From: an uncultured Pirellulaceae bacterium
GTDB lineage: Bacteria; Planctomycetota; Planctomycetia; Pirellulales; Pirellulaceae
Direction: 5' to 3'
DNA: 32,034 bases
NCBI GenBank assembly: GCA_938082855.1
Contig: CALKCC010000057.1
Location: 1-32,034, forward strand
Shown here: piece after piece, positions 16,770 through 31,799 of the stretch
How the letters are laid out: every line of letters starts with the position of its first letter
Numbering within the stretch: the stretch's first letter is position 1
Notes under the pieces: model-generated
Told to the model about the DNA's origin: nothing
The model's database searches: none
Seen by the model: only the letters and a program-made list of their open reading frames with translations
Translations under genes and position numbers: made by a program

Positions 16770-16855
16770 CGAGACCTCCTGTCTCTCACGCTGTTGCCGA
16801 TGCTCAGCAACTTCAACAACGCAATTCACTAAGTTATAGTGCCCCGCTTTGTCTT

Positions 16856-17524
16856 CTATCTATCGGAGAAGGATACGATCCCAAGCTCCCACAAGTCAAT
16901 AACAACTGACTGCATATCGTGATAACCGCCTGAAAACCCTGATCCCAGCATTTTGAACAACAACGATCTCAGGGACATCGGTTCAACTGGCCGAGCGGAC
17001 AACTCTATCTCATTAGCCGCCGATTCCTTCAGTTGCTTTAGGGGATCTGCGTCTAAGCCAAATAATGCCTGGCAGAAAACATCGGCCAGATTCCTTATAT
17101 CGGTTTCCACGTTTTCCTGTAATGGACCGTATGCCTGTCCGTATTGGTTTGGAGATGCAATGTCCAGCGGCCATTGATCCTCAAGAAATTCAATCGCATG
17201 TTCAAACACTGAGCTCGGAACAAAGAGCTTAATCTCACCCTGATCGTCTATATAGATATTCTCGAGCGTCAGTCTCTTTCCCAGGGTCAGCTGAAAGCTA
17301 TGAATGTGAGATAGGCTATGAGCTATCTTCGTCATGACTTCGACTGCAACTTCGGTTGGTAGAACACCTGTTGATGTCAGTAAATCGTGTAGCGAGTCTA
17401 GATCAACCAGCTCGTTGTCAGAGCAATCCAATAGGATATTAGGGTGATGCGACAAGCTTGCCTGCATATCCTCGCAAATCTGTTTTTTATCGTACGTTGA
17501 ACTCTCTGGTGGTGCTAATACCAT
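16856..17524 (-). CDS. Pseudokinase-like protein (C-lobe remnant of a protein kinase)
   Basis: The protein is 222 aa, ATG with AAGGA 9 nt upstream. It reads as a protein-kinase C-lobe: LDSLHDLL like an alphaD region (43-50), VMTKIAHSLSHIHSFQL like alphaE (63-79), GKRLTLENIYID in place of HRDLKPENILLD (82-93), GEIKLF in place of the strand before DFG (96-101), then SPNQYGQ and TDIRNLADVFCQALFG like the APE segment and alphaF (141-156). HRD is GKR and DFG is replaced by VPS, while the Asn of ENI remains. No glycine-rich loop or N-lobe is present. Thus catalysis is unlikely and a scaffold or binding role is inferred. It lies between phoU and phoH on one strand. Homology is my reading of the pattern, not a search. 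Confidence 0.6.
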   Translation of the reverse strand: MVLAPPESSTYDKKQICEDMQASLSHHPNILLDCSDNELVDLDSLHDLLTSTGVLPTEVAVEVMTKIAHSLSHIHSFQLTLGKRLTLENIYIDDQGEIKLFVPSSVFEHAIEFLEDQWPLDIASPNQYGQAYGPLQENVETDIRNLADVFCQALFGLDADPLKQLKESAANEIELSARPVEPMSLRSLLFKMLGSGFSGGYHDMQSVVIDLWELGIVSFSDR

Positions 17525-17651
17525 ACTGGCGATTCCTTCTCGGTGAGAACACTTGTTTTCAATCGATTACTTGTAAGTAATGTACGCTTCAGATATTCAG
17601 ATCTCTTGAGTGTTTAATTAGAAATTGATGAAGCTGCATACCGATCCAGAT

Positions 17652-18305
17652 TCATGCCACACGCTGACGACGAGGTAGAATTCTTCCATGTTTGAGATAA
17701 TAGACATGGGCGGCGACATTACTGGAAAAATCGACCAATAAACTGATAGCACGGGCACACTCCAGAAGATAGGTTGCTTCCACCACAGCATCCGCATCTT
17801 GTTTCACCGTCTGTTTCAAGGCGTCAAGCACTGCCGCATATTGCTTCGTTATATGTCCACGGATTTCAAAAGCATTGCAGGCACGACTCTCATCAGCTCG
17901 AATATAGGCCTCGACAGACTCCGAAACACTGTTCACTGATTGATACGCCATCTGTTCCAACTCGGTGGTCACTAAGCTATAGGACGATGAATTAAAGTGA
18001 CTGGCGTTAACAGCAATCTCGACGGCCAGCTTACTGATGCTGCTCAGTTCCTGGTTGACTTTTAAAACAGCGGCGATCCTTCGCAAGTCACTCGCCACTG
18101 GTTGCTGCAATGTAAGCAGCTCGAGGCACTTGTGTTCGAGCCGAATCGCTCTCTGGTACACAAGCGGTTGCAGTTCCTGAATATCATCCAGCATAGAAAC
18201 ACTCTCGGATAAACTGCGTACTGCATCGGACAGCATGGATTCAATCATGGTGCAAATGACCACCAATTCGCGATGCAATTGTTCAATGGATCTATGTAAT
18301 GTCAC
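17652..18305 (-). CDS. phoU: PhoU-family phosphate signalling protein
   Basis: The protein is 217 aa, standard for PhoU, with a GTG start (AAGG close by, AGGGA further up). Two three-helix PhoU repeats are visible: the first ends with LELLTLQQPVASDLRRIAAVLK, the second with YLLECARAISLLVDFSSNVA. The usual metal-binding E/DxxxD pair is only partly preserved (EIAVNASH in place of E-R-I-G-D). PhoU links Pst transporters to the PhoR/PhoB-type kinase and silences the Pho regulon in high phosphate. It is divergent from the first pstS and shares a 300-bp regulatory gap with it; the pseudokinase-like gene follows after 127 bp. Confidence 0.88.
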   Translation of the reverse strand: MTLHRSIEQLHRELVVICTMIESMLSDAVRSLSESVSMLDDIQELQPLVYQRAIRLEHKCLELLTLQQPVASDLRRIAAVLKVNQELSSISKLAVEIAVNASHFNSSSYSLVTTELEQMAYQSVNSVSESVEAYIRADESRACNAFEIRGHITKQYAAVLDALKQTVKQDADAVVEATYLLECARAISLLVDFSSNVAAHVYYLKHGRILPRRQRVA

Positions 18306-18429
18306 TACCTTATTCGGTCCCTTAAGTATCGATGACGATTCTTGAATCTAACTAGCTCTAATAGCAAACTTCCTGCCACTAATCCCGCATCTTTAGTATC
18401 GGGAAACAATAACAGAGTCATATTAAGGA

Positions 18430-18575
18430 AGGGGCAATGCTACGTGAATATCGCGTGAATGCGCGTTAACACTTTATTCACGTTTTCCTCACCTATTTCA
18501 CATCCAATTAGCGTCGCATCTTCACATTTGGGGTATTTAATTGAACGAAGAAGTTGATAGACATTCCGTTCACTT
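18430..18575. promoter_or_regulatory. Pho-box-like direct repeats in the 300-bp phoU/pstS divergent gap
   Basis: The gap 18306-18605 holds no gene. GTGAA occurs at 18434 and 18445, exactly 11 bp apart (CGTGAATATCG CGTGAATGCGC). On the other strand, TTCAC-type words occur at 18477, 18488 (CTCAC), 18497, 18521 and 18569. About 11-bp spacing of a short half-site is the geometry of PhoB/PhoP direct-repeat operators, and GTTCACC is the actinobacterial PhoP unit. A palindrome GTTCacttatcGAAC (18568-18582) lies nearer the pstS start. Assignment is inference from geometry and context; 18306-18429 shows nothing else clear. Confidence 0.45.
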
Positions 18576-18605
18576 ATCGAACATATGTATTGAAGGAAAG
18601 CGAAA

Positions 18606-19568
18606 ATGAAAAAATTGCTCTGTTCCGCTGTGATTCTCACAGCATTTATTACGGGCCAAACGTTTGGTCAGGGCGTTCAGGTTGATAGCAACCTGAACGA
18701 TTACACTCCGGTAGCTGGTGTTGCCGGAACAATTAAGAGCGTTGGTTCGGACACCATGAATAATATGATGACTTTATGGTCGGAAGGTTTTCTAAAGTAT
18801 TATCCGAACGTCCGTGTTGAGATTGAAGGAAAAGGTTCCTCGACAGCTCCTCCGGCTCTGATTTCAGGTACCTCCACTTTCGGGCCAATGAGCCGGAAAA
18901 TGAAAGACGCTGAAGTTGATGCCTTTGAGAAACAATACGGTTACAAGCCAACTCAGGTCGGAACAAGCATCGACATGCTGGCTGTGTATGTCAATAAAGA
19001 CAATCCAGTCAAAGGCTTGTCACTAGCACAGGTAGACGCCATCTTCTCTAGCACACGTAAGCTTGGGCTGGATGAGATCACTAACTGGGATGCAACAGGC
19101 GCTACGGGGCTAGGAGCAATTAGCCTCTATGGCCGTAACTCAGCTTCCGGGACTTACGGATATTTCAAGAAAAATGTCCTGGGTGACGGAGACTACAAAG
19201 CTTCTGTCAAAGAGCAGCCTGGTAGTGCCTCGGTTGTACAGGGTGTCGCATCTGATAAATCCGGAATTGGCTATTCTGGTATCGGCTACAAAACAGCTGA
19301 TGTCCGCGCCGTTCCACTGGCTGCAGAAGAAGGTGCTGAAGCCGTACCTGCGACAGCAGAATATGCCTACTCAGGTGATTACCCACTAGCTCGTTACCTG
19401 TGGTTAAGCGTGAATTACAAGCCTGGAAGCCAGCTCGATCCACTTCGTCGTGAATTCATGAAGTATATCTTCAGTCGTCAGGGTCAGGAAGCTGTTGTTA
19501 AAGATGGTTACTTCCCTGTCAACGCTAAGGTTTCTAGCAGTGCTCTGAATGCTGTTGGCATCAAGTAA
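18606..19568 (+). CDS. pstS: Phosphate ABC transporter substrate-binding protein PstS (first system)
   Basis: The protein is 320 aa with a cleavable signal peptide (MKKLLCSAVILTAFITGQTFGQ) and no lipobox, so a soluble periplasmic protein. Phosphate-pocket blocks are present: KSVGSDTMNNMM, GKGSSTAPPALISG, GPMSRKM, and RNSASGTYGYF for the second domain. The C-terminal QGQEAVVKDGYFPVN is typical. It binds orthophosphate and delivers it to the PstC-PstA channel. GAAGGAAAG lies just upstream of the ATG. It is followed by a strong hairpin before pstC, which would keep PstS made in excess over the membrane parts. Confidence 0.92.
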   Translation: MKKLLCSAVILTAFITGQTFGQGVQVDSNLNDYTPVAGVAGTIKSVGSDTMNNMMTLWSEGFLKYYPNVRVEIEGKGSSTAPPALISGTSTFGPMSRKMKDAEVDAFEKQYGYKPTQVGTSIDMLAVYVNKDNPVKGLSLAQVDAIFSSTRKLGLDEITNWDATGATGLGAISLYGRNSASGTYGYFKKNVLGDGDYKASVKEQPGSASVVQGVASDKSGIGYSGIGYKTADVRAVPLAAEEGAEAVPATAEYAYSGDYPLARYLWLSVNYKPGSQLDPLRREFMKYIFSRQGQEAVVKDGYFPVNAKVSSSALNAVGIK

Positions 19569-19680
19569 GCACCTTCTGGTTAGTAAAAGGGTAAAAGGGA
19601 TTAGGTGGTCAGGCAATTTAATGAATCGCCTTGAAAAAACACCTAGTACTCGCAGGTAAAAATGGGTAGTTCCCGCGACG

Positions 19681-19724
19681 CGGGTGGCGGTTCTCTCTTC
19701 GGAGGGGTCGCCGCCCGTCCTTTT
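19681..19724 (+). terminator. Intercistronic hairpin with UUCG tetraloop between pstS and pstC
   Basis: CGGGTGGCG (19681-19689) pairs with CGCCGCCCG (19709-19717). The inner arms continue as CTCTC/GAGGG and close on a C(UUCG)G tetraloop at 19697-19702. TCCTTTT follows. The stem is very stable but the T-run is short, so it is probably a partial terminator or 3'-end stabiliser of the pstS message. The rest of 19569-19806 shows no gene. Confidence 0.75.
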
Positions 19725-19806
19725 AGCTAACTCTAACCACGAGCCAAAAACGGGGCATCTTTCATAGTACAAACAAAAAAGGAAGCTAGAAAAGCGATTT
19801 ATTCTT

Positions 19807-22401
19807 ATGTCAACGGGAACTGGTAGCAAACGGCGTAAGACAACTCGACTGAGAGTCAAACTCTCAGATGCTCTCGCTCGGATAATTATCCGCATCGGAG
19901 GTATTGGCACCATTGGAACAGTCTCTTTAGTGGGTGTTCTGTTGGTAGTTGTCGTGGCCCCTCTCTATTTTGAGGCGTCCATCGAGCCGAAAGAATCTAA
20001 TACACTGGAATCAAAAGAGATTCCTATCAAAACGGTATTCGACGAATATCGCACGATCAGCTGGTCTCTATTTGCTGACGGAAATCTTCAGGCACGTCGT
20101 ACAGATACACTGGAATTACTGAGCGAACAGAACCTCACCGATGGAAAGGTGATTACCTCCAGTGTCTTCGAAATTGAAACCAATGAATTGGTCCTGGGAT
20201 TGGAGGACGGGAGTGCCCTCTTGGGTTCTATTGGATTTAATACGTCTTTCCTGGATGACGACCAGATCGACGAGGAATACCTGACGTTGCAGAAGGGGCA
20301 AATTGCAACGTACGAAGAGGGTACAGTCCAAATCACTCCACAAAAACAGTTCCGCATTCAGAAATTGAGCGTGGAGTTTAGGGAGCCACTTCAATTGTCG
20401 CAGCAAGCGATAACCCTGATGGATGCCATCCTTCCACTCAACGACGGTGGAGCAGGAAAGAAGACTAAGAAACTCGTTTTTGTCGACGCTACGGGGCGGG
20501 CGCAAATTGGAAATGTCGCCGAAAATGAAAACATGTTCACTGGTGATGTCGTATTGAAGTTTGAGGGCGTTGACCTGCCACTAAGTGACAAACGAACCGT
20601 AACGCCGGATTATCTCCGTTTCTATGGTGTCGGGGACAGAGTTTATTTGATTTGGAAAGATGGGGAGATCCATCGATTTGATACCCGTAATATCAAATCG
20701 GGTATTTCGACACCCGTGGTGGAAGACTTGCTTGGGGATAATTCTCTGCACATCACTGCGTTGGAATTCGCGTTGGGAAATGCCACGCTTCTTGTAGCAG
20801 ATTCCGGAGGCAACTTAAACGGGTGGTTGCAAACCCGAACCAAGAACGGCCAACCTGGCGACTATTTACAGTTGGTTCATCAACTACCTCAAAGCCAGTC
20901 TTGGGTCACCAGCCTTGGGTTATCTTCACGCAGTCGAATGATATCGGCAGGCTACGCCGACGGCACTCTCAAAGTATTTCACGTGACCACCGATCAGGAA
21001 ATATTCGCTACTCAGATTGGTTCCGAACGGGAAATTTTAAAGACCTTTATTACTCCCAAGGAAGACGGATTGGTTGCCATCACTAAAGATTCATTGTGGC
21101 ATGCAGACTTTGATCCTAAACACCCCGAAGCTTCAATGTCCTCTTTATTCGGTCCTGTTTGGTATGAAGGATACGACGAACCGAGACACATTTGGCAGTC
21201 TTCATTTGCCAGTGCTGCACCGGAAGTAAAACTGGGGTTGCGACCGTTAATTTTCGGAACATTGAAGGCAACATTTTACACAATGCTCTTTGGAACACCG
21301 ATCGCGTTACTTGGCGCAATTTACACCAGTGAATTCCTCAGTCGCCGGTCAAAGTCGATCATTAAGCCGAGCGTCGAAATGATGGCCAGTCTTCCCAGTG
21401 TGGTGTTGGGATTTTTGGCTGGATTGGTTCTGGCTCCGTTTGTTGAATATGTCATTCCTCAAATGCTAACCTGTGTCTTTCTAGTACCTGCCGTGTTTGT
21501 GTTTGGAGGCCACCTTTGGCAATTAATTCCCAGGGATTTACAGTTGCGGTACTCCCAGGTGCGATTTTGGCTAATGGTCATTACGATTCCTGTTTCCATG
21601 CTTATTGCCTACCTGCTAGGCCCAGCTATCGAGGAATTGCTGTTTAGTGGAGACATCCGCACCTGGCTCGAGGATCACAACCAGGGCAATGGTATAGGTG
21701 CCTGGATGATTCTGTGGCTACCCTTGAGTATTGTCATTGTGGGAGCGCTGGTCGTGACATTTGTGAGCCCACGAGTGAGAGCGGGTGCTCACAAACATAC
21801 CCGTTTTAAATTCGCGGTAATGGCCTTGGTTAGATTCTTATTAGCCTCAGCTTGTGTCGTTCTGTTCGCCTGGGGAATCTCATTCCTGCTAAATAGTATG
21901 GGATGGGATCCACGAGGTAGTTACATTGATAAATACGATCAACGGAATGCATTCGTGGTGGGTTTCGTAATGGGTTTTGCCGTCATTCCCATTATCTATA
22001 CCATCGCCGAGGATGCCCTCTCGACAGTCCCAAATCATCTACGAAGTGGATCCTATGGGACCGGGGCAACCACTTGGCAAACGTCTGTCCGAATTGTGAT
22101 TCCAACGGCTATGAGTGGCCTCTTTTCTGCTGTCATGGTGGGACTTGGACGAGCGGTGGGTGAGACGATGATCGTCCTGATGGCAGGTGGTAATACATCC
22201 GTCGAAGACTGGAATATGTTCAACGGATTCAGAACGCTTTCCGCCAACATTGCGGTGGAATTACCGGAAGCAGTACGCAATAGCACGCACTATCGTACGC
22301 TATTTTTAGCAGCGCTCACGCTGTTCTTACTTACCTTTGTCGTTAACACCGTTGCGGAACTTGTTCGACTTCGATTCAGAAAGAGAGCATACCAATTATG
22401 A
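19807..22401 (+). CDS. pstC: Giant phosphate permease PstC with beta-propeller-like insertion
   Basis: The protein is 864 aa against about 300-330 for ordinary PstC. A first membrane segment (about 30-53) is followed by an extra-membrane region of about 420 residues (55-475). This holds repeated short beta-strand blocks resembling WD/propeller blades (ITALEFALGNATLLVADSGGNLNGW; SRMISAGYADGTLKVFHV). The permease core runs from about 476 to the end, with SLPSVVLGFLAGL and the ATPase-coupling EAA-type loop GSYGTGATTWQTSVRIVIP...GLGRAVGETM. Similar large PstC proteins (COG4590 type) occur in Pseudomonas and relatives. The insertion probably faces the periplasm and may sense or hold PstS. AAGGAAG is the nearest ribosome site but lies about 20 nt upstream. 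Stop overlaps the pstA start. Confidence 0.88.
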   Translation: MSTGTGSKRRKTTRLRVKLSDALARIIIRIGGIGTIGTVSLVGVLLVVVVAPLYFEASIEPKESNTLESKEIPIKTVFDEYRTISWSLFADGNLQARRTDTLELLSEQNLTDGKVITSSVFEIETNELVLGLEDGSALLGSIGFNTSFLDDDQIDEEYLTLQKGQIATYEEGTVQITPQKQFRIQKLSVEFREPLQLSQQAITLMDAILPLNDGGAGKKTKKLVFVDATGRAQIGNVAENENMFTGDVVLKFEGVDLPLSDKRTVTPDYLRFYGVGDRVYLIWKDGEIHRFDTRNIKSGISTPVVEDLLGDNSLHITALEFALGNATLLVADSGGNLNGWLQTRTKNGQPGDYLQLVHQLPQSQSWVTSLGLSSRSRMISAGYADGTLKVFHVTTDQEIFATQIGSEREILKTFITPKEDGLVAITKDSLWHADFDPKHPEASMSSLFGPVWYEGYDEPRHIWQSSFASAAPEVKLGLRPLIFGTLKATFYTMLFGTPIALLGAIYTSEFLSRRSKSIIKPSVEMMASLPSVVLGFLAGLVLAPFVEYVIPQMLTCVFLVPAVFVFGGHLWQLIPRDLQLRYSQVRFWLMVITIPVSMLIAYLLGPAIEELLFSGDIRTWLEDHNQGNGIGAWMILWLPLSIVIVGALVVTFVSPRVRAGAHKHTRFKFAVMALVRFLLASACVVLFAWGISFLLNSMGWDPRGSYIDKYDQRNAFVVGFVMGFAVIPIIYTIAEDALSTVPNHLRSGSYGTGATTWQTSVRIVIPTAMSGLFSAVMVGLGRAVGETMIVLMAGGNTSVEDWNMFNGFRTLSANIAVELPEAVRNSTHYRTLFLAALTLFLLTFVVNTVAELVRLRFRKRAYQL

Positions 22402-24878
22402 GTAAGAAAAAACGAAGAGGTGGTTCTCGACTAAGCCGCCCTGGGATGTCAATGATGGCTCAGGGGGAACCAATGGTCTGGTTTACCGGCGGAGCGTTAG
22501 CGATTTCACTGGTCATGATTGTCGGTTTACTTTGCTGGATCATCTATAACGGCAGTATCACATTTTGGCCTGTTCCGATCTCCAAGGTTCAGCTTAACGA
22601 CGGTCAATACGTAATGGGTGAGATCGTGTCTGAAGAGGACTACTTTCTTAGACAGAACATGCTTACAACCATTTCGCCGGCGGATGAGGATATTGTCAAA
22701 GAGCTTTTGGGGGCACAAGAGCGTACCAATGTTCACCGACGTCAGTTCCGAACCGGGAATTTTGATATCACCAATGAACACTTTCGGTGGGTAAGCGCAT
22801 TTGAATTCGAAGAAAATACTGAAGTACAACCGGAATGGGCATTAACTGTCGAACGCATCGAGTGGGGACGATTTTATGGCGAACCAGTTCGTTACGCCGT
22901 GGAAACCCAAAGAGACGTTCCGGACCAAGAGAAGCTATACGCAGACCTAATCCTCTTTTTGCAAAACCAATTTCGCTGGCAGATTTCTGACGAACAGAAA
23001 GTGGTTATTAACAATCATTTACCGGCTTTAGTGGAAACACATCAAGCCTTACGAGCGGCCAATATTGCCAAATTCCTCGAGGCAAATACAAAAACGCAAG
23101 AAAACGAATCCATTGAGATTGCCACCGGATTTTCAACCGTCTCACTGGAGGAATACCAACCAGACCCCACTCAGGATGTCAAAGGGCTTAAACATGTTTG
23201 GACGGGCGCGGAGACAGTATGGCAGAAATTCCAAGGCGAACATGATAATGCTCGCCAGCGTTACCTCGATCGTCGCGTTCTGGAAAAACATGATATTGGT
23301 GCCGTCAATCACCGCATGGAAAGGGGACGTCTCAATGTGCGACAAGCTGAATTGGATTTTGATCTTCGCGTGCTGGATGATGCGATTGCCAAACGCGAAA
23401 ACCTTCGTACGATTGAAGCGATCGAACTTGAAAAGAACGCAACACTCACCACGATTCAACATAGCCTAAAGATCATACCAACGGATTTACAGCGTGTGGT
23501 AGAGCAGCTAACCGGTCCTGTGAATGAATACTATGCAGGCCAGGCGGCGGCCTATGAGTCCACCATCGCGGACATTGATGCGAAACTACAGGCTTGTCCA
23601 GACCCTGTCCAACAGATCATCGCGGACTACCTCGTAATTCAAGAAGAGGCGGATAAGGCAACTGCGGACATCCAGAAGGAAATTGATAAGTCCAAGGCTG
23701 AAAATCACAAATACAAACTGACTTTGGCCACGGCTCAGGGAGTTGAAAAAGAGCTGGCTGTCGATGAAATCGTCCGAGCCTATCCTGCCAACCAACTCAC
23801 CACCGGCGACAAATGGGAGATCTATCTGGAGCGATGGGGAGAATTCTTAGTGGACGATCCACGTGAGGCCAATAGTGAAGGCGGTGTTTTCCCAGCAATC
23901 TGGGGAACGGTCACGATGACACTCATTATGTGTCTGGTCGTTGCACCCTTCGGCGTGCTTGCGGCGCTGTACTTACGGGAATATGCCAAAGACGGTGTGA
24001 TCGTCAGTATCATTCGTATTGCTATTAATATTCTTGCAGGGGTCCCCAGCATTGTCTTTGGAGTCTTTGGATTAGGATTCTTCTGTTACATCTTCGGAGC
24101 CTATACCGATGGTGGCCCAAAAGCGATTAATGTCACTCCGTTTAGCTCGAGTACTTGGATTATGGGACTACTAATAACACTGGCACTGATCGTCACAGCA
24201 GTCCTCTGCAACGTTTGGTTAGTCAAACGCAAAAAAAATGTACGAGTTGCTCACAAAGCCTGGCTCTACTCCATCCCCGCCATTCTTTGGTGTGCTGCCC
24301 TTGCCATTGCTGTGGTTCTCATGGTGAAAATCCCATTTTTCAATGGATTCTTTGAAGCCTCGTTGCCAAATCCCACATTTGGCAAAGGGGGGTTACTATG
24401 GGCTTCGTTAACATTAGCATTACTTACCTTGCCGGTGGTTATCGTAGCCACCGAAGAAGCATTATCTGCCGTTCCAAACTCATTACGAGAAGGCTCGTTT
24501 GCGACGGGCGCCAGTAAGTGGCAAACTATTCGTCGCGTAGTGTTACCACACGCAACTCCAGGGATTATGACTGGGATGGTACTGGCGATGGCCCGGGGAG
24601 CTGGAGAAGTTGCTCCTCTGATGCTTGTGGGTGCAGTCAAGCTCGCACCAGAGTTACCCGTGGATATGGTGGCACCATTTGTGCACCTGGAACGGAGCTT
24701 TATGCATCTAGGATTTCACATTTATGACCTTGGATTTCAAAGTCAAAACTCAGAAGCAGCACAACCGATGGTGTACACCACCACACTGCTTCTGGTGGGT
24801 ATTATTTTCGTCCTCAATATCGCAGCAATCCTGTTGAGAAACAGATTGCGAAAACGATTTGCTGTTGGGCATTTTTAA
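22398..24878 (+). CDS. pstA: Giant phosphate permease PstA with coiled-coil insertion
   Basis: The protein is 826 aa against about 280-300 usually. Start overlaps the pstC stop (ATGA), so the two are translationally coupled. One membrane segment (about 31-51) is followed by about 440 extra-membrane residues. The second half of these (about 270-460) is a charged helical, coiled-coil-like stretch (LDFDLRVLDDAIAKRENLRT, EEADKATADIQKEIDKSKAE). The permease core starts near residue 495 with AIWGTVTMTLIMCLVVAPFG. It contains AGVPSIVFGVFGLGF and the coupling loop GSFATGASKWQTIRRVVLP...ARGAGEVAPL. It pairs with the giant PstC; the two insertions are likely partners on the same membrane side. It precedes pstB by 42 bp. 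Confidence 0.88.
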   Translation: MSKKKRRGGSRLSRPGMSMMAQGEPMVWFTGGALAISLVMIVGLLCWIIYNGSITFWPVPISKVQLNDGQYVMGEIVSEEDYFLRQNMLTTISPADEDIVKELLGAQERTNVHRRQFRTGNFDITNEHFRWVSAFEFEENTEVQPEWALTVERIEWGRFYGEPVRYAVETQRDVPDQEKLYADLILFLQNQFRWQISDEQKVVINNHLPALVETHQALRAANIAKFLEANTKTQENESIEIATGFSTVSLEEYQPDPTQDVKGLKHVWTGAETVWQKFQGEHDNARQRYLDRRVLEKHDIGAVNHRMERGRLNVRQAELDFDLRVLDDAIAKRENLRTIEAIELEKNATLTTIQHSLKIIPTDLQRVVEQLTGPVNEYYAGQAAAYESTIADIDAKLQACPDPVQQIIADYLVIQEEADKATADIQKEIDKSKAENHKYKLTLATAQGVEKELAVDEIVRAYPANQLTTGDKWEIYLERWGEFLVDDPREANSEGGVFPAIWGTVTMTLIMCLVVAPFGVLAALYLREYAKDGVIVSIIRIAINILAGVPSIVFGVFGLGFFCYIFGAYTDGGPKAINVTPFSSSTWIMGLLITLALIVTAVLCNVWLVKRKKNVRVAHKAWLYSIPAILWCAALAIAVVLMVKIPFFNGFFEASLPNPTFGKGGLLWASLTLALLTLPVVIVATEEALSAVPNSLREGSFATGASKWQTIRRVVLPHATPGIMTGMVLAMARGAGEVAPLMLVGAVKLAPELPVDMVAPFVHLERSFMHLGFHIYDLGFQSQNSEAAQPMVYTTTLLLVGIIFVLNIAAILLRNRLRKRFAVGHF

Positions 24879-24920
24879 TCGCTCAGGAATTACTAATTCA
24901 AATAAGGACTCGTCGCGGAA

Positions 24921-25838
24921 ATGTCTACGGATTCAAAAAACATGAATACTACTACTGAGAACGGACTTCCTACCATCCTGCCTGATCTTTCAGCACATCA
25001 AACGGAAGGGGATGTTGATCGTTTACGTTTAATCGAAAATGGGCAAGTCATCCCAGCTGTCATCCATGAGGATATTAATGACGAGGATATCATCCTTGAG
25101 ATCAACAAACTTAATCTCTGGTATGGCAACGCCCAGGCGTTATACGACATCACTTTTGAAGTTCCCCGAGGGAAGGTAACTTCTCTGATTGGGCCGTCCG
25201 GCTGTGGTAAATCGACTATGCTCCGCTGCGTCAACCGAATCAACGACTTGATTGATTCGGTACGTATCGAAGGCGATATGATCATTGACGGAGACTCCAT
25301 TTTTGCTCCCGGCGTGGATGTCATTGAACTTCGAAAACGAATGGGGATGGTATTCCAAAAGCCAAATCCCTTTCCAATGAGCATTTATGAAAATGTCGTC
25401 TATCCCCTAAGGATCGATGGCGTGCGAGACAGGGCCGAATTAGACGAAGTCTGCGAACGTAGCCTAAGGGGGGCCGCGTTATGGGACGAAGTGAAAGATC
25501 GGCTTCGTGAAAGTGGCTTAAGTCTTTCCGGTGGTCAGCAACAGCGACTCTGCATTGCCCGAGCGATCGCCAGTGACCCGGAAATGCTGTTACTCGACGA
25601 ACCTTGCTCGGCATTGGATCCTGTCGCCACCGCGAAAATTGAAGAATTGATCCAGAATCTGTCCGGTGACTATTCAATTTTGATCGTGACTCACAATATG
25701 CAACAGGCATCACGCCTGAGTGATTACACCGCTTTTATGTATCTCGGGAACCTGATTGAATTTGGTCCCACCTATAAAATCTTTAGCAAACCAGAAACCA
25801 AGGAAACTGAAGATTATGTGACTGGCCGTTTCGGCTAG
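24921..25838 (+). CDS. pstB: Phosphate ABC transporter ATPase PstB (first system, canonical)
   Basis: The protein is 305 aa, about 50 residues longer than usual because of an acidic N-terminal extension (1-58). All motifs are intact: Walker [10 protein letters not shown] (91-99), Q-loop Gln146 (VFQKPNP), signature LSGGQ (202-206), Walker B with Asp226-Glu227 ([12 protein letters not shown]) and H-loop His258 (VTHNM). It hydrolyses ATP as a homodimer to drive the giant PstC-PstA channel. A second ATG (codon 8) is possible, but AAGGA upstream fits the first. It serves as the in-window reference for the two deviant PstB proteins of the second system. Confidence 0.94.
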
Positions 25839-25971
25839 TTCTTTTTACCGGGACTGTTTATCAATCTTCACCAATTCAATCGGAACCAAAGATACAGCGA
25901 AGCACACAACACGTGGGAACTTTTTACAACAACCAAACTCAATCTATTGCGTGTTATAGGAGAGTACCTAA

Positions 25972-27153
25972 ATGCAACATCAACAAAAACTGGGTATGAT
26001 TACCCTTTGCACTATCCTGCTGGTACCAGCATTGATCGTGCAAGCTCAACTCCCTCATCGTTATGCCGTGGAAGGCGAAGCATTGTGGGATCTCATTGGA
26101 CCTACTTATAAATCCTGGAAAGTTACCGACAGAAGTCCAATTGGACTTCCCGGTCCCACTGCCCAAAATGGACACGTGCGATACGTAAATCGAGTGGCCA
26201 ACCGGAGCGGCGATTTGCCACTTTACGGCAGTATCATTGTGACTGAGCATTATGCCGGTGACGAACAAAAGTCGCTTAACGCGGTGACCATCGCCCATCG
26301 AGTTCATAAGGACTACGATAGCAATAACCAAAATTGGTACTGGGCCCACTACTCGGCCGATGGCAAACTCATTGCCAGCTCGAGAACATCTGGTCCTTTT
26401 GATAAAGGTGACTTCCTCACCTTTGAAGAAGATGGACGTCTATGGGTTTTTCATATTCAGGATCCAGCTTTGGCGGACTACATCAGCAAAGGCGAACTTG
26501 CCAAGCATGTTATTCGCCCCGGAATTGGTCCTCGAGGGATGACCCTAAAATCCAGCGACTACGATACCATCAACGAATTTATTTCACTCAAAGATGGATT
26601 CACCACTTCGCTTGAAGATGGACGCCTCTGGGTTTTTAAGACCGATAGTGACGAGCTGGCCAGCTTTCAAGAGCATGGCGAGCCAGCCAAATGCGTAGTC
26701 CGACCGGCTGCAGGGCCTGGTGGATTGACAATCAAGTCATCTGATGCTGACGTGATTGAGCAATACATCAATGCGAAGTCTGGATTTGAAATCCGCATGT
26801 CTGAAGGTCGTATGTGGGTGTTTACAGCAGGTGATCCCGCCATTGAAGAATATGACCATCAGGGTGAACTTGCCAAGCACGTCATTCGTCCTGGAATCGG
26901 GCCTGGAGGTATGACCCTCAAGAGTAATGAATCCGATACCATTACAAACTATTTGGTCCAACAGGAAGGATTTTCCGTCACGATTGAAGACGGCCGCCTA
27001 TGGGTTTTTGCCACAGGCAGTGATGCCCATCAGAGTTTTCTAGAGCACGGTGAACCTGCTAAATGCGTGGTTTTTCCAGCTGCTGGTCCTGTGGGAATGA
27101 CCGTCAAAGGTGCAGATCGCGAGGTTATAAACGCCTATTTACGTGGCACCTAA
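25972..27153 (+). CDS. Secreted protein with heme-less cytochrome-P460-like domain and four 62-residue repeats
   Basis: The protein is 393 aa with a signal peptide (..ITLCTILLVPALIVQAQ) and AGGAG before the ATG. Residues about 38-140 resemble a cytochrome P460 domain (YKSWKV, VRYVNRVAN, LPLYGSIIVTEHY, NAVTIAHRVHKDY, NWYWAHYSADGKLIAS). No CxxCH is present anywhere, so heme c cannot be bound in the usual way. From residue 154 four repeats start with DGRLWVF or EGRMWVF at 154, 216, 278 and 340, exactly 62 residues apart; the last is truncated. Repeats 1 and 3 share GELAKHVIRPGIGP, repeats 2 and 4 share HGEPAKCVV.PAAGP. Function unknown; its place between two Pst operons suggests a phosphate-responsive secreted protein. 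Confidence 0.7.
   Translation: MQHQQKLGMITLCTILLVPALIVQAQLPHRYAVEGEALWDLIGPTYKSWKVTDRSPIGLPGPTAQNGHVRYVNRVANRSGDLPLYGSIIVTEHYAGDEQKSLNAVTIAHRVHKDYDSNNQNWYWAHYSADGKLIASSRTSGPFDKGDFLTFEEDGRLWVFHIQDPALADYISKGELAKHVIRPGIGPRGMTLKSSDYDTINEFISLKDGFTTSLEDGRLWVFKTDSDELASFQEHGEPAKCVVRPAAGPGGLTIKSSDADVIEQYINAKSGFEIRMSEGRMWVFTAGDPAIEEYDHQGELAKHVIRPGIGPGGMTLKSNESDTITNYLVQQEGFSVTIEDGRLWVFATGSDAHQSFLEHGEPAKCVVFPAAGPVGMTVKGADREVINAYLRGT
26431..27150 (+). repeat. Four in-frame 186-bp coding repeats (A-B-A-B)
   Basis: Units start at 26431, 26617, 26803 and 26989 with an exact 186-bp period and no indels. Units 1 and 3 resemble each other more than their neighbours, as do 2 and 4. That implies duplication of a 372-bp A-B pair after an earlier unit duplication. 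Confidence 0.85.
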
Positions 27154-27187
27154 ACCGATAAAGACGCTAAAATAGTGAATCTGAGAG

Positions 27188-27229
27188 CCCTAACCTGAGG
27201 TAAGCAAAACCTCGGGTTGGGGTTTTTTT
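27188..27229 (+). terminator. Rho-independent terminator after the repeat protein
   Basis: A 13-bp stem (27188-27200 against 27210-27222) contains CCTGAGG/CCTCGGG with a few G-T pairs, a 9-nt loop, then seven T. It ends the first phosphate transcript before the second pst operon, supporting independent promoters for the two systems. Confidence 0.88.
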
Positions 27230-27265
27230 GAGGCCTCAACTCATACACTAGCCCCAATAGATATC

Positions 27266-27300
27266 CCATTCTTAATACTTTCTTAACATTTATTTGGCCA
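27266..27300 (+). promoter_or_regulatory. Pho-box-like 11-bp direct repeats upstream of the second pstS
   Basis: TTCTTAA occurs at 27269 and 27280, exactly 11 bp apart (ATTCTTAATAC TTTCTTAACAT), followed in phase by a weaker TTATTTGG. The second unit continues as TTAACAT, seen in some PhoB half-sites. It lies about 80-110 bp before pstS, an expected place for a PhoB/PhoP operator. Inference from geometry. Confidence 0.45.
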
Positions 27301-29308: not shown

Positions 29309-30215
29309 CGAACTAAACAACCCGTTTGCCGCCACCGACCAGGAACGTCAAGCTCGGGAAAAAGAGAAGTTCATCAAGCTATCGACTCAGCTAATTACCT
29401 GGTTACTGGTTATTCCGGTCGTGGCCATTATCGTCTTTCTGGTTTATAAATCCTGGCCAGCTCTTTCGGTTGAGTTTATCACCGAAAACCCAAAAGTTCG
29501 AATGACCGCCGGCGGTATCTGGGCTCCTCTGATTGGTACTTTCTTCCTGGTACTCGTCTCGTTGATTATTGCAGCTCCGATTGGAATTCTGGCGGGTGTG
29601 TACCTCAACGAATTTGCTAGGGATAACTGGCTGACTCGCTTCATCAATCTGGCGGTGGTCAATCTGGCAGGCGTACCAAGTATCGTGCATGGTTTGTTCG
29701 GCTTGGGAGCCTTCGTGTATTTCCTTGGTATGGATCGATGTCTGTTAGCCGCATCCTGTACAGTTGCGGTCATGACACTGCCTGTGATTATTACCAGTAC
29801 CAAAGAAGCGTTGGCCTCTGTGCCTATGGCATTCCGCGTGGCGTGCTGGAACATGGGAGCGACTAAATGGCAGACCATTCGTACGATCGTCCTGCCTAAC
29901 TCCATCAGCGGAATATTGACCGGTGTTATTCTTCAGGTGGCAAGAGCGGCAGGAGAAACCGCCCCGATTCTCTTTACCGGAGCGATGATTTCCTCTCGTG
30001 TTGCAGACTCAGGCTGGGATGCCTGGGTTCCCTACGGTTTAGAAGATCGTTTCATGGCACTTTCCTACCATCTGTACATTATCTCCACTCAGTGGCAGAA
30101 CGTTCCTGAATCGTTCAAGTTTGGTACAGCTGCCGTGATGATTGGATTAGTGATTGCTGTGAACAGCATTTCCATTGGTTTCCGCATTTACTTACGTTCA
30201 AGAAAGAAGTGGTAG
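29301..30215 (+). CDS. pstA: Phosphate ABC transporter permease PstA (second system)
   Basis: The protein is 304 aa, normal PstA size, about six membrane segments. NLAGVPSIVHGLFGLGAF and the coupling loop FRVACWNMGATKWQTIRTIVLP...QVARAAGETAPILF identify PstA. It forms the channel with the second PstC. Each permease half would contact one ATPase subunit, which matters because the next two genes encode two different PstB proteins. pstB starts 5 bp after its stop. Confidence 0.94.
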   Translation: MSNELNNPFAATDQERQAREKEKFIKLSTQLITWLLVIPVVAIIVFLVYKSWPALSVEFITENPKVRMTAGGIWAPLIGTFFLVLVSLIIAAPIGILAGVYLNEFARDNWLTRFINLAVVNLAGVPSIVHGLFGLGAFVYFLGMDRCLLAASCTVAVMTLPVIITSTKEALASVPMAFRVACWNMGATKWQTIRTIVLPNSISGILTGVILQVARAAGETAPILFTGAMISSRVADSGWDAWVPYGLEDRFMALSYHLYIISTQWQNVPESFKFGTAAVMIGLVIAVNSISIGFRIYLRSRKKW

Positions 30216-30219
30216 TAAT

Positions 30220-30972
30220 ATGAATTACCAAGTTGAATTTCATGACGTAAATGTCTCTTACGGATCCGATATTGCACTCCGGAATATCAATTTGCAGATC
30301 CCCAAGAACGAAATCTTTGGAATCATTGGTCCTGCCAACGCTGGTAAGACAACATTCCTCAAGGCCATTAATCGGACCTTAGAGTTCATTCACAATGCCA
30401 AGACGGAGGGTGACATCCTATTTGATGGCACCAATGTTAAGACGATCCGCAATGTATATGAATTGCGACGTAAGGTCGGAGTCGTTTTCCCATTGCCGGT
30501 TGGACTCCCAATGTCCATCTTTGAAAACGTGGCCTACGCTCCACGTCGTTCGGGCATTCATGATAAGCAAGAACTGGAAGAACTTGTTGAACGCTGCCTT
30601 CAGCAAGCCATGTTATGGGACGAAGTTAAAGACCGCCTCCACATGCTTGGGACGAAACTATCCGGGGGACAACAGCAACGACTCACGATCGCCCGAGCCC
30701 TATCACACTCGCCTGATGTTCTGTGTCTGGATGAATTCTCGATTGCGATCGACCCAGTCACGACGATGAAAATTGAAGACGTTCTTTCTGAATTAAAAGA
30801 TGAAATGACGATCATTCTAGTGACCAATCTTGTCCAGCAAGCTCGTCGACTGGCAGATCAAACCGCGTTTTTCAATAAGTCAGAATTAGTGGAATATGGC
30901 CCCACTGAGAAGCTTTTCACTTCACCAGATAACCAACTTACCTACGACTATGTCACGGGAGACTTTGGATAA
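30220..30972 (+). CDS. pstB: PstB-like ATPase I: intact LSGGQ, lost Q-loop Gln and H-loop His
   Basis: The protein is 250 aa from the ATG at 30220, chosen because it lies just after the pstA stop; an upstream in-frame start would overlap pstA by 41 bp. Walker A is GPANAGKT (37-44), acceptable but altered from GPSGCGKS. The Q-loop reads VVFPLP, with Pro91 where PstB has Gln. The signature LSGGQ (147-151) and Walker B Asp171-Glu172 (CLDEF) are intact. The switch His is Asn203 (VTNLV for VTHNM). Thus its own ATP-binding face is impaired while its signature face is good. It probably forms a heterodimer with the next PstB on the second PstC-PstA. Stop and next start overlap (TAATG). Confidence 0.9.
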   Translation: MNYQVEFHDVNVSYGSDIALRNINLQIPKNEIFGIIGPANAGKTTFLKAINRTLEFIHNAKTEGDILFDGTNVKTIRNVYELRRKVGVVFPLPVGLPMSIFENVAYAPRRSGIHDKQELEELVERCLQQAMLWDEVKDRLHMLGTKLSGGQQQRLTIARALSHSPDVLCLDEFSIAIDPVTTMKIEDVLSELKDEMTIILVTNLVQQARRLADQTAFFNKSELVEYGPTEKLFTSPDNQLTYDYVTGDFG

Positions 30973-31799
30973 TGTCTACAGTAGCACCACAACTCGTTAC
31001 CAGTGAATTCACTCCACCTGAAGCAAGTCACGTCGAAGACTATAGCATTCGCACCAATGACCTCAGTCTTTGGTACGGTGATTTCCAAGCTTTGATGGAT
31101 GTCTCCGTGAATATCAAGAAGGGGATTATCACCGGATTGATTGGTCCTTCCGGATGTGGAAAGACCACTTTACTTCGATGCTTCAACCGAATTAATGAGC
31201 GATACGGCAATGTAACAACAACTGGTGACATTGAGATCCTGGACAAGAACATCTACGACGAAGATGTTTCAGTGCGGCAACTGCGACGTAGTGTAGGCAT
31301 GGTCTTCCAGCGTCCCAACCCGTTGCCGATTTCGATCTACGATAACGTGCTTTTCGGAATGGGGATCCACGACGCCTTTAAGTCGCTTCCCAAGAGTGAA
31401 CGTAATGACATTGTCGAAAACGCGTTACGTGAAGTGGATTTGTGGAACACGGTAAAAGATCGACTCAAGTCACGGGCGACAACACTGACTCTGGAACAAC
31501 AGCAAAAACTCTGTATCGCTCGTCTGCTTCCTTTGAAACCGGATATCATCCTGATGGATGAACCCTGTAGCGCTTTAGACGCTGAAGGAATCGAAAAGGT
31601 AGAGAACCTCATCGAATCCTTACGCGACGAATACACGGTCGTCATTGTTACTCACAATATGGCTCAGGCTCGACGCGCCACCGATGAGTGCATCTTCATG
31701 TTGCTTGGTGAAATCATTGAACACACCAAAACATCTGAAATGTTCTTGAATCCACAACATGAAAAAACGGAAATGTACATTCAGGGACGTTACGGGTAA
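30972..31799 (+). CDS. pstB: PstB-like ATPase II: intact Walker, Q- and H-loops, degenerate signature LTLEQ
   Basis: The protein is 275 aa with a short N-terminal extension. Walker A GPSGCGKTT (58-66), Gln113 (VFQRPNP), Walker B Asp196-Glu197 ([10 protein letters not shown]) and His228 (VTHNM) are all canonical. The ABC signature, LSGGQQQR in normal PstB, is LTLEQQQK (172-179): Ser is Thr, both glycines are lost and Arg is Lys. It complements the preceding ATPase, which keeps LSGGQ but has lost the Q- and H-loop residues. Its start overlaps that gene's stop by one base, as does its own stop with the phoU start, so all three are translationally coupled. Confidence 0.92.
   Translation: MSTVAPQLVTSEFTPPEASHVEDYSIRTNDLSLWYGDFQALMDVSVNIKKGIITGLIGPSGCGKTTLLRCFNRINERYGNVTTTGDIEILDKNIYDEDVSVRQLRRSVGMVFQRPNPLPISIYDNVLFGMGIHDAFKSLPKSERNDIVENALREVDLWNTVKDRLKSRATTLTLEQQQKLCIARLLPLKPDIILMDEPCSALDAEGIEKVENLIESLRDEYTVVIVTHNMAQARRATDECIFMLLGEIIEHTKTSEMFLNPQHEKTEMYIQGRYG

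Follow-up and report, generated by a model that had tools for sequence, protein, structure and literature searches.

We analysed a window of 32,034 nucleotides, the whole stretch of DNA considered here, from an uncultured Pirellulaceae bacterium (contig CALKCC010000057.1). A gene for a 393-residue repeat protein lies in it with a Pst operon on either side, as the sequence-only reading had described. The features are as follows:

17475..27278, no strand, cassette of phoU, pstSCAB1, repeat gene and terminator, about 99.6% identical in nucleotides to genus member G006
17652..18305, minus strand, phoU-like gene, divergent from pstS1 and inside the mobile cassette (TIGR02135, 92.6 bits, under the cut-off of 130.25)
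18606..19568, plus strand, pstS1, phosphate-binding protein (PF12849, 110 bits)
19807..22401, plus strand, pstC1, long form (TIGR02138, 199.8 bits; cut-off 196.45)
22398..24878, plus strand, pstA1, long form (PF00528)
24921..25838, plus strand, pstB1, ATPase (PF00005)
25820..25840, plus strand, weaker terminator-like hairpin at the pstB1 stop (-12.4 kcal/mol, z -3.7, tail CUUUUU)
25972..27153, plus strand, repeat-protein gene, 393 residues, product predicted to be secreted (ATG start; open reading frame and homologues)
25972..26046, plus strand, predicted signal peptide, residues 1-25 (hydrophobic N-terminus read directly; unstructured in the model)
26062..26391, plus strand, heme-less domain of P460 / cytochrome c'-beta fold, residues 31-140 (structure matches, BLASTP, PF16694 in a close relative)
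26407..26592, plus strand, repeat unit 1, A type (AKHVIRPGIGP), residues 146-207
26593..26778, plus strand, repeat unit 2, B type (AKCVVRPAAGP), residues 208-269
26779..26964, plus strand, repeat unit 3, A type, residues 270-331
26965..27150, plus strand, repeat unit 4, B type, residues 332-393
27183..27230, plus strand, strong intrinsic terminator closing the first operon (centroid -30.4 kcal/mol, z -4.5, followed by a run of T)
27271..27288, plus strand, Pho-box-like tandem CTTAATA-N4-CTTAACA before pstS2, suggestive only

PstC1 carries about 600 extra N-terminal residues that are weakly WD40-like (a weak WD40 match at 355-391), and the hairpin at the pstB1 stop may be an attenuator of read-through into the repeat gene. 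We also observed that PstC1 and PstA1 both have very large extra domains, with a stretch in PstA1 that looked coiled-coil-like by eye. The second operon contains two pstB genes (30175-31799); read by eye, the last of them (30972-31799) has LTLEQ at the LSGGQ place and the other has DEF instead of the usual DEP after Walker B, so that each partner may be degenerate. No arsenic-resistance (ars) genes were found beside the repeat gene in the window.

The 393-residue protein is predicted to be secreted, either into the periplasm or as a membrane-anchored form, and both its secretion signal and its domain make-up can be read from the sequence. Residues 26-145 matched CxxCH-bearing P460 relatives in BLASTP (E 1e-12 to 5e-8), one of which scored 39.7 bits against PF16694 Cytochrome_P460 (cut-off 27). 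Moreover, the closest solved structures to the domain model were 7ead (Z 8.3), 6hih (7.6) and 6hiu (7.3), and the top seventeen rows of the fold search were all c'-beta/P460 proteins (Z 5.9-8.3, 91-98 residues aligned). The whole protein was found to contain no CxxCH, and residues 26-145 no Cys at all, in line with the earlier recognition of P460-like blocks in a heme-less protein without CxxCH. Residues 31-140 therefore share sequence blocks and fold with the Cytochrome P460 / c'-beta superfamily (PF16694; 6hih, 6hiu, 7ead), but lack its CxxCH and Cys, and the repeat array stands in place of the C-terminal heme segment. When aligned with heme P460 proteins, repeat unit 1 begins where their CxxCH segment sits, indicating that the heme-binding tail was exchanged for the array. 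Judging from these matches, the P460 part is a known fold whose cofactor has been lost.

The array consists of four units spaced exactly 62-62-62 without indels, with natural domain starts at residues 146, 208, 270 and 332 and DGRxW at residues 154, 216, 278 and 340, the positions from which the indel-free repeats had originally been counted. Their description as exact 62-residue repeats held for length but not for sequence: units 1 and 3 are identical at 35/62 positions, units 2 and 4 at 34/54 and the other pairs at 22-30 (35-63% overall). Because shuffled units reached a mean of 3.9 and a maximum of 11 identical residues of 62 in 2000 trials, compared with 22-35 in the real pairs, the likeness of the units is far above chance. 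The pairing of units 1/3 and 2/4 that had been noticed was reproduced, with an A-B-A-B margin of 0.13 in the window protein and of 0.11 in the sister remnant L023. However, nineteen other four-unit arrays displayed a mix of ABAB, AABB and ABBA with margins mostly <0.08, indicating that A-B-A-B is a local duplication of a pair and not a general design. By these alignments the pairing is clear only within the genus; A-B-A-B as a general architecture was rejected, and the proposal that the alternation makes two interfaces per pair is unsupported as a general feature. Over 195 units, the strongest conservation was found at G-R-x-W/Y, A-K/R, G-x-G-P, T/S-x-K/R and a C-terminal Y: R was retained in 192 units, K/R at the AK site in 183, T/S in 193, the G and P of GxGP in 193 and 186, and the second K/R, which is lost in one planctomycete family, in 167.

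The AlphaFold model of the array (pLDDT 92.8, pTM 0.87) agrees with the compact repeated fold expected earlier, and each unit is modelled as beta-beta-alpha-beta-beta-alpha (pLDDT near 90). The propeller-like fold suggested at the same time was not borne out. With two helices per unit in the predicted secondary structure, there are no all-beta four-stranded blades of the SGL, Vgb lyase or NHL types, and the window protein scored below cut-off for the beta-propeller Pfam families SGL (20.7; cut-off 26.3) and Vgb (18.4; cut-off 50). No known repeat family, a prospect the sequence-only reading had raised, was found at curated cut-off in Pfam or NCBIfam for the unit, either in the window protein or in the tested unit-bearing homologues. 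PDB sequence searches with the unit gave nothing convincing. Similarly, the array had no Foldseek hit below 0.001 in the PDB and matched 1/993 chains at a Z of at least 2 in VIA-align, which does not prove a new fold, and nothing significant appeared in the viral fold library. None of the libraries searched (Pfam, NCBIfam, PDB) has a name for the repeat unit. A local likeness was identified between the hairpin and helix of the YHS domain (PF04945) and the first half of the unit (DGRLYVFTS...FEKSGE). However, the unit lacks the metal-binding Cys, is longer and scores under the cut-off: the window protein was unlisted for PF04945, and the best tested homologue, a distant one, reached 27.9 bits (cut-off 30.3). 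Profile comparison with YHS gave 50% probability for the family of that homologue and 1% for the whole unit set. We regard this likeness as suggestive only and do not claim YHS membership.

The cassette at 17475-27278 is about 99.6% identical between the window genome (G000) and G006, whereas its flanks are mostly 85-95% identical, indicating that phoU-pstSCAB1-repeat-terminator moved between species as one unit in a recent exchange. Its right edge falls between the repeat-gene terminator and pstS2, so that the repeat gene is part of the first, long-PstC operon and not of the second. Among nine genomes of the genus, an intact repeat gene and long PstC1 were present only in G000 and G006. Homology in G008 skips from window position 16796 to 26322, and the repeat gene that remains there is truncated at its 5' end and interrupted by a stop; only the last 45 residues remain in G004. 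The decayed genes in two sister genomes (L023 8631-9459; L032 1332-1526) lie at a scar without phoU-pstSCAB1. Five of the nine genomes have neither the repeat gene nor long PstC1, each single absence being uncertain as some genomes are incomplete (69-99%). At the sequence level, it is evident that the repeat gene is linked to the operon and has been lost and transferred along with the long Pst genes.

Intact homologues among 98 relatives carried one to four units. Units occurred in 36/392 genomes of a phylum sample, many of them in proteins that look lipoprotein-like and lack the P460 domain. When named genomes were scanned with one motif (DGRLWVF), which samples the family unevenly and undercounts it, the unit was found beyond the phylum in Desulfobacterota, Spirochaetia, Verrucomicrobia, and Alpha- and Gammaproteobacteria. 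At 57/85 dereplicated homologous loci, pst genes lay within 3.5 kb, and 12 further loci had ars genes. The usual order was pstS-pstC-pstA-pstB-repeat(-phoU), with repeat-pstS in one planctomycete family and Moraxellaceae. Nearly all multi-unit genes stood after pstB of a long-PstC operon or before pstS. Genes with one to four units were placed immediately 3' of pstB or 5' of pstS in proteobacteria, Desulfobacterota, spirochaetes, Verrucomicrobia and distant planctomycetes. This place beside pst operons, conserved in distant genera and other phyla, supports the link to phosphate that the gene's position had suggested. Moreover, a PstC1 match was present in 34/36 repeat-bearing genomes versus 155/356 others in the phylum sample (p 6.6e-10), and long PstC, by our own count from bit scores, in 10/10 relatives with the intact gene versus 27/88 others. 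Many long-Pst genomes lack the repeat gene, indicating that it is not essential for transport. A phage or plasmid origin of the repeat protein was rejected, as no matches were found in phages (P0001) or plasmids (single-unit protein).

Unlike the window gene, the single-unit genes of Gammaproteobacteria, among them Pseudomonas and Stutzerimonas, mostly lie close to arsR-arsC-acr3-arsH clusters or are oriented divergently from them. An alphaproteobacterial homologue lies 3' of arsR-arsC-acr3 on the same strand, and that of Elioraea, also alphaproteobacterial, adjoins a PhnC-type transporter. Several single-unit homologues are near neither pst nor ars. The loci concerned are:

L125, L127-L133, L135, L138, L139, L144, L145, L153, L161 and L175, single-unit homologues divergent from arsRC-acr3-arsH
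L120 4039-4345 and L121 6928-9183, two alphaproteobacterial homologue loci, one PhnC-type and one arsR-arsC-acr3

Family models at the ars and phn loci placed acr3, ArsH, ArsR and PhnC above their cut-offs, and ArsC at family level under its cut-off.

Most of these ars-divergent genes have a PHO-box-like site upstream. In proteobacterial single-unit genes, the site reads CTGTMAT-N4-CTGTCAT and is in most cases located between -63 and -99 on the coding strand. A score of at least 18 was reached in 20/32 dereplicated proteobacterial upstream regions versus 13/599 control genes (2%; p 3e-21), a comparison by consensus matching in which the controls are genes of the same loci and the upstream regions, coming from related bacteria, are not fully independent. 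Pho control is thus well supported by upstream sites for the proteobacterial homologues. No Pho box was found directly before the window repeat gene; Pho control there is presumed, the Pho-box evidence amounting to an operon-level guess. In two sister genomes, the tandem before pstS2 consists of two perfect copies of CTTAACA. In a study of Pi-responsive Pseudomonas proteomes (PMC5082522), the relevant main-text passages do not name the repeat protein.

Based on the above results, we consider it likely that the protein is secreted, under Pho control and accessory to high-affinity phosphate uptake by long-form PstSCAB; its modules would bind an oxyanion or Pst surfaces. It is probably a phosphate-starvation accessory undescribed so far. 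Its gene sits at the end of a PstSCAB-PhoU operon of the long-PstC type and is gained and lost with it, whereas the protein is distinct from PstS, C, A, B and PhoU, and no accessory of this kind was found in the searched family libraries or literature. Viewed at the system level, it adds a new accessory variant to Pst phosphate uptake. What we infer for the window, namely co-expression of the operon, starvation induction, ligand and mechanism, would run as follows. Under phosphate starvation, the cell would make the repeat protein along with long-form PstSCAB. The part of the protein that does the work would be the 62-residue beta-beta-alpha-beta-beta-alpha module in one to four copies. With its conserved Arg, Lys, Thr, Lys/Arg and GxGP loop, each copy would most likely bind either a phosphate/arsenate-type oxyanion or an anionic surface on PstS or on the enlarged PstC/PstA. 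Arrays would gather substrate or keep PstS close to the transporter. Grafted on at the CxxCH-tail position in this lineage, the array would have left the P460-type domain as a heme-less structural or docking part.

What the module contacts can be read in two ways. It may bind phosphate or arsenate directly and act as a periplasmic buffer or trap for the ion, in which case arrays would raise capacity and the proteins beside ars operons would handle arsenate; we hold this reading tentatively, at less than an even chance. The module lies beside pst, phn and ars genes, whose only common trait is the phosphate/arsenate type of ligand, and R, K/R and T/S are near-invariant and accompanied by the GxGP loop in every unit. 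However, the second K/R is not universal, and the conserved Arg and Lys could serve structure or protein contacts instead of an anion. The ars linkage may also reflect island structure, since arsenic islands often hold pho, pst and phn genes according to the relevant passages of one paper (PMC3834237), which do not mention such a repeat protein. The near-obligate company of long PstC, the gain and loss of the entire cassette together and a unit number of 1 to 4, typical for binding scaffolds, argue instead for a protein-protein adaptor whose array docks PstS or the enlarged PstC/PstA without a small ligand. Single-unit proteins nevertheless persist beside ars operons, away from pst and with no adjacent long PstC. 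We regard a pure adaptor role as doubtful and weigh oxyanion binding slightly above it.

A general envelope-stress or structural repeat protein that merely belongs to the Pho regulon, for example in low-phosphate surface remodelling, would account for the N-termini that look lipoprotein-like by eye in many homologues, for the variable unit number and for some orphan loci. We think this rather unlikely, as the linkage to pst/ars, which is close and recurs in different phyla, is more specific than one would expect from a general role. It is very unlikely that the N-terminal domain still holds heme non-covalently, or another small molecule as in gas sensing, with the array as its anchor only: the P460/c'-beta fold is retained, but the domain is Cys-free, its CxxCH segment was exchanged for the array, and most homologues elsewhere have the array without a P460 domain. 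The preferred reading therefore remains that of a Pst accessory. A broader claim, that the module is an undescribed repeat fold binding periplasmic phosphate/arsenate oxyanions, common to phosphate uptake and arsenic resistance in several phyla and used in one-to-four-unit arrays, appears to us somewhat improbable at present.

Although Pst is a textbook system, an extra secreted component, unnamed in the searched libraries, appears to be present in many bacteria. With the module also lying beside arsenic genes, it offers a direct route to studying how phosphate and its toxic mimic are dealt with outside the membrane. It is readily testable, since culturable Pseudomonas and Marinomonas have single-unit versions only about 90 residues long.
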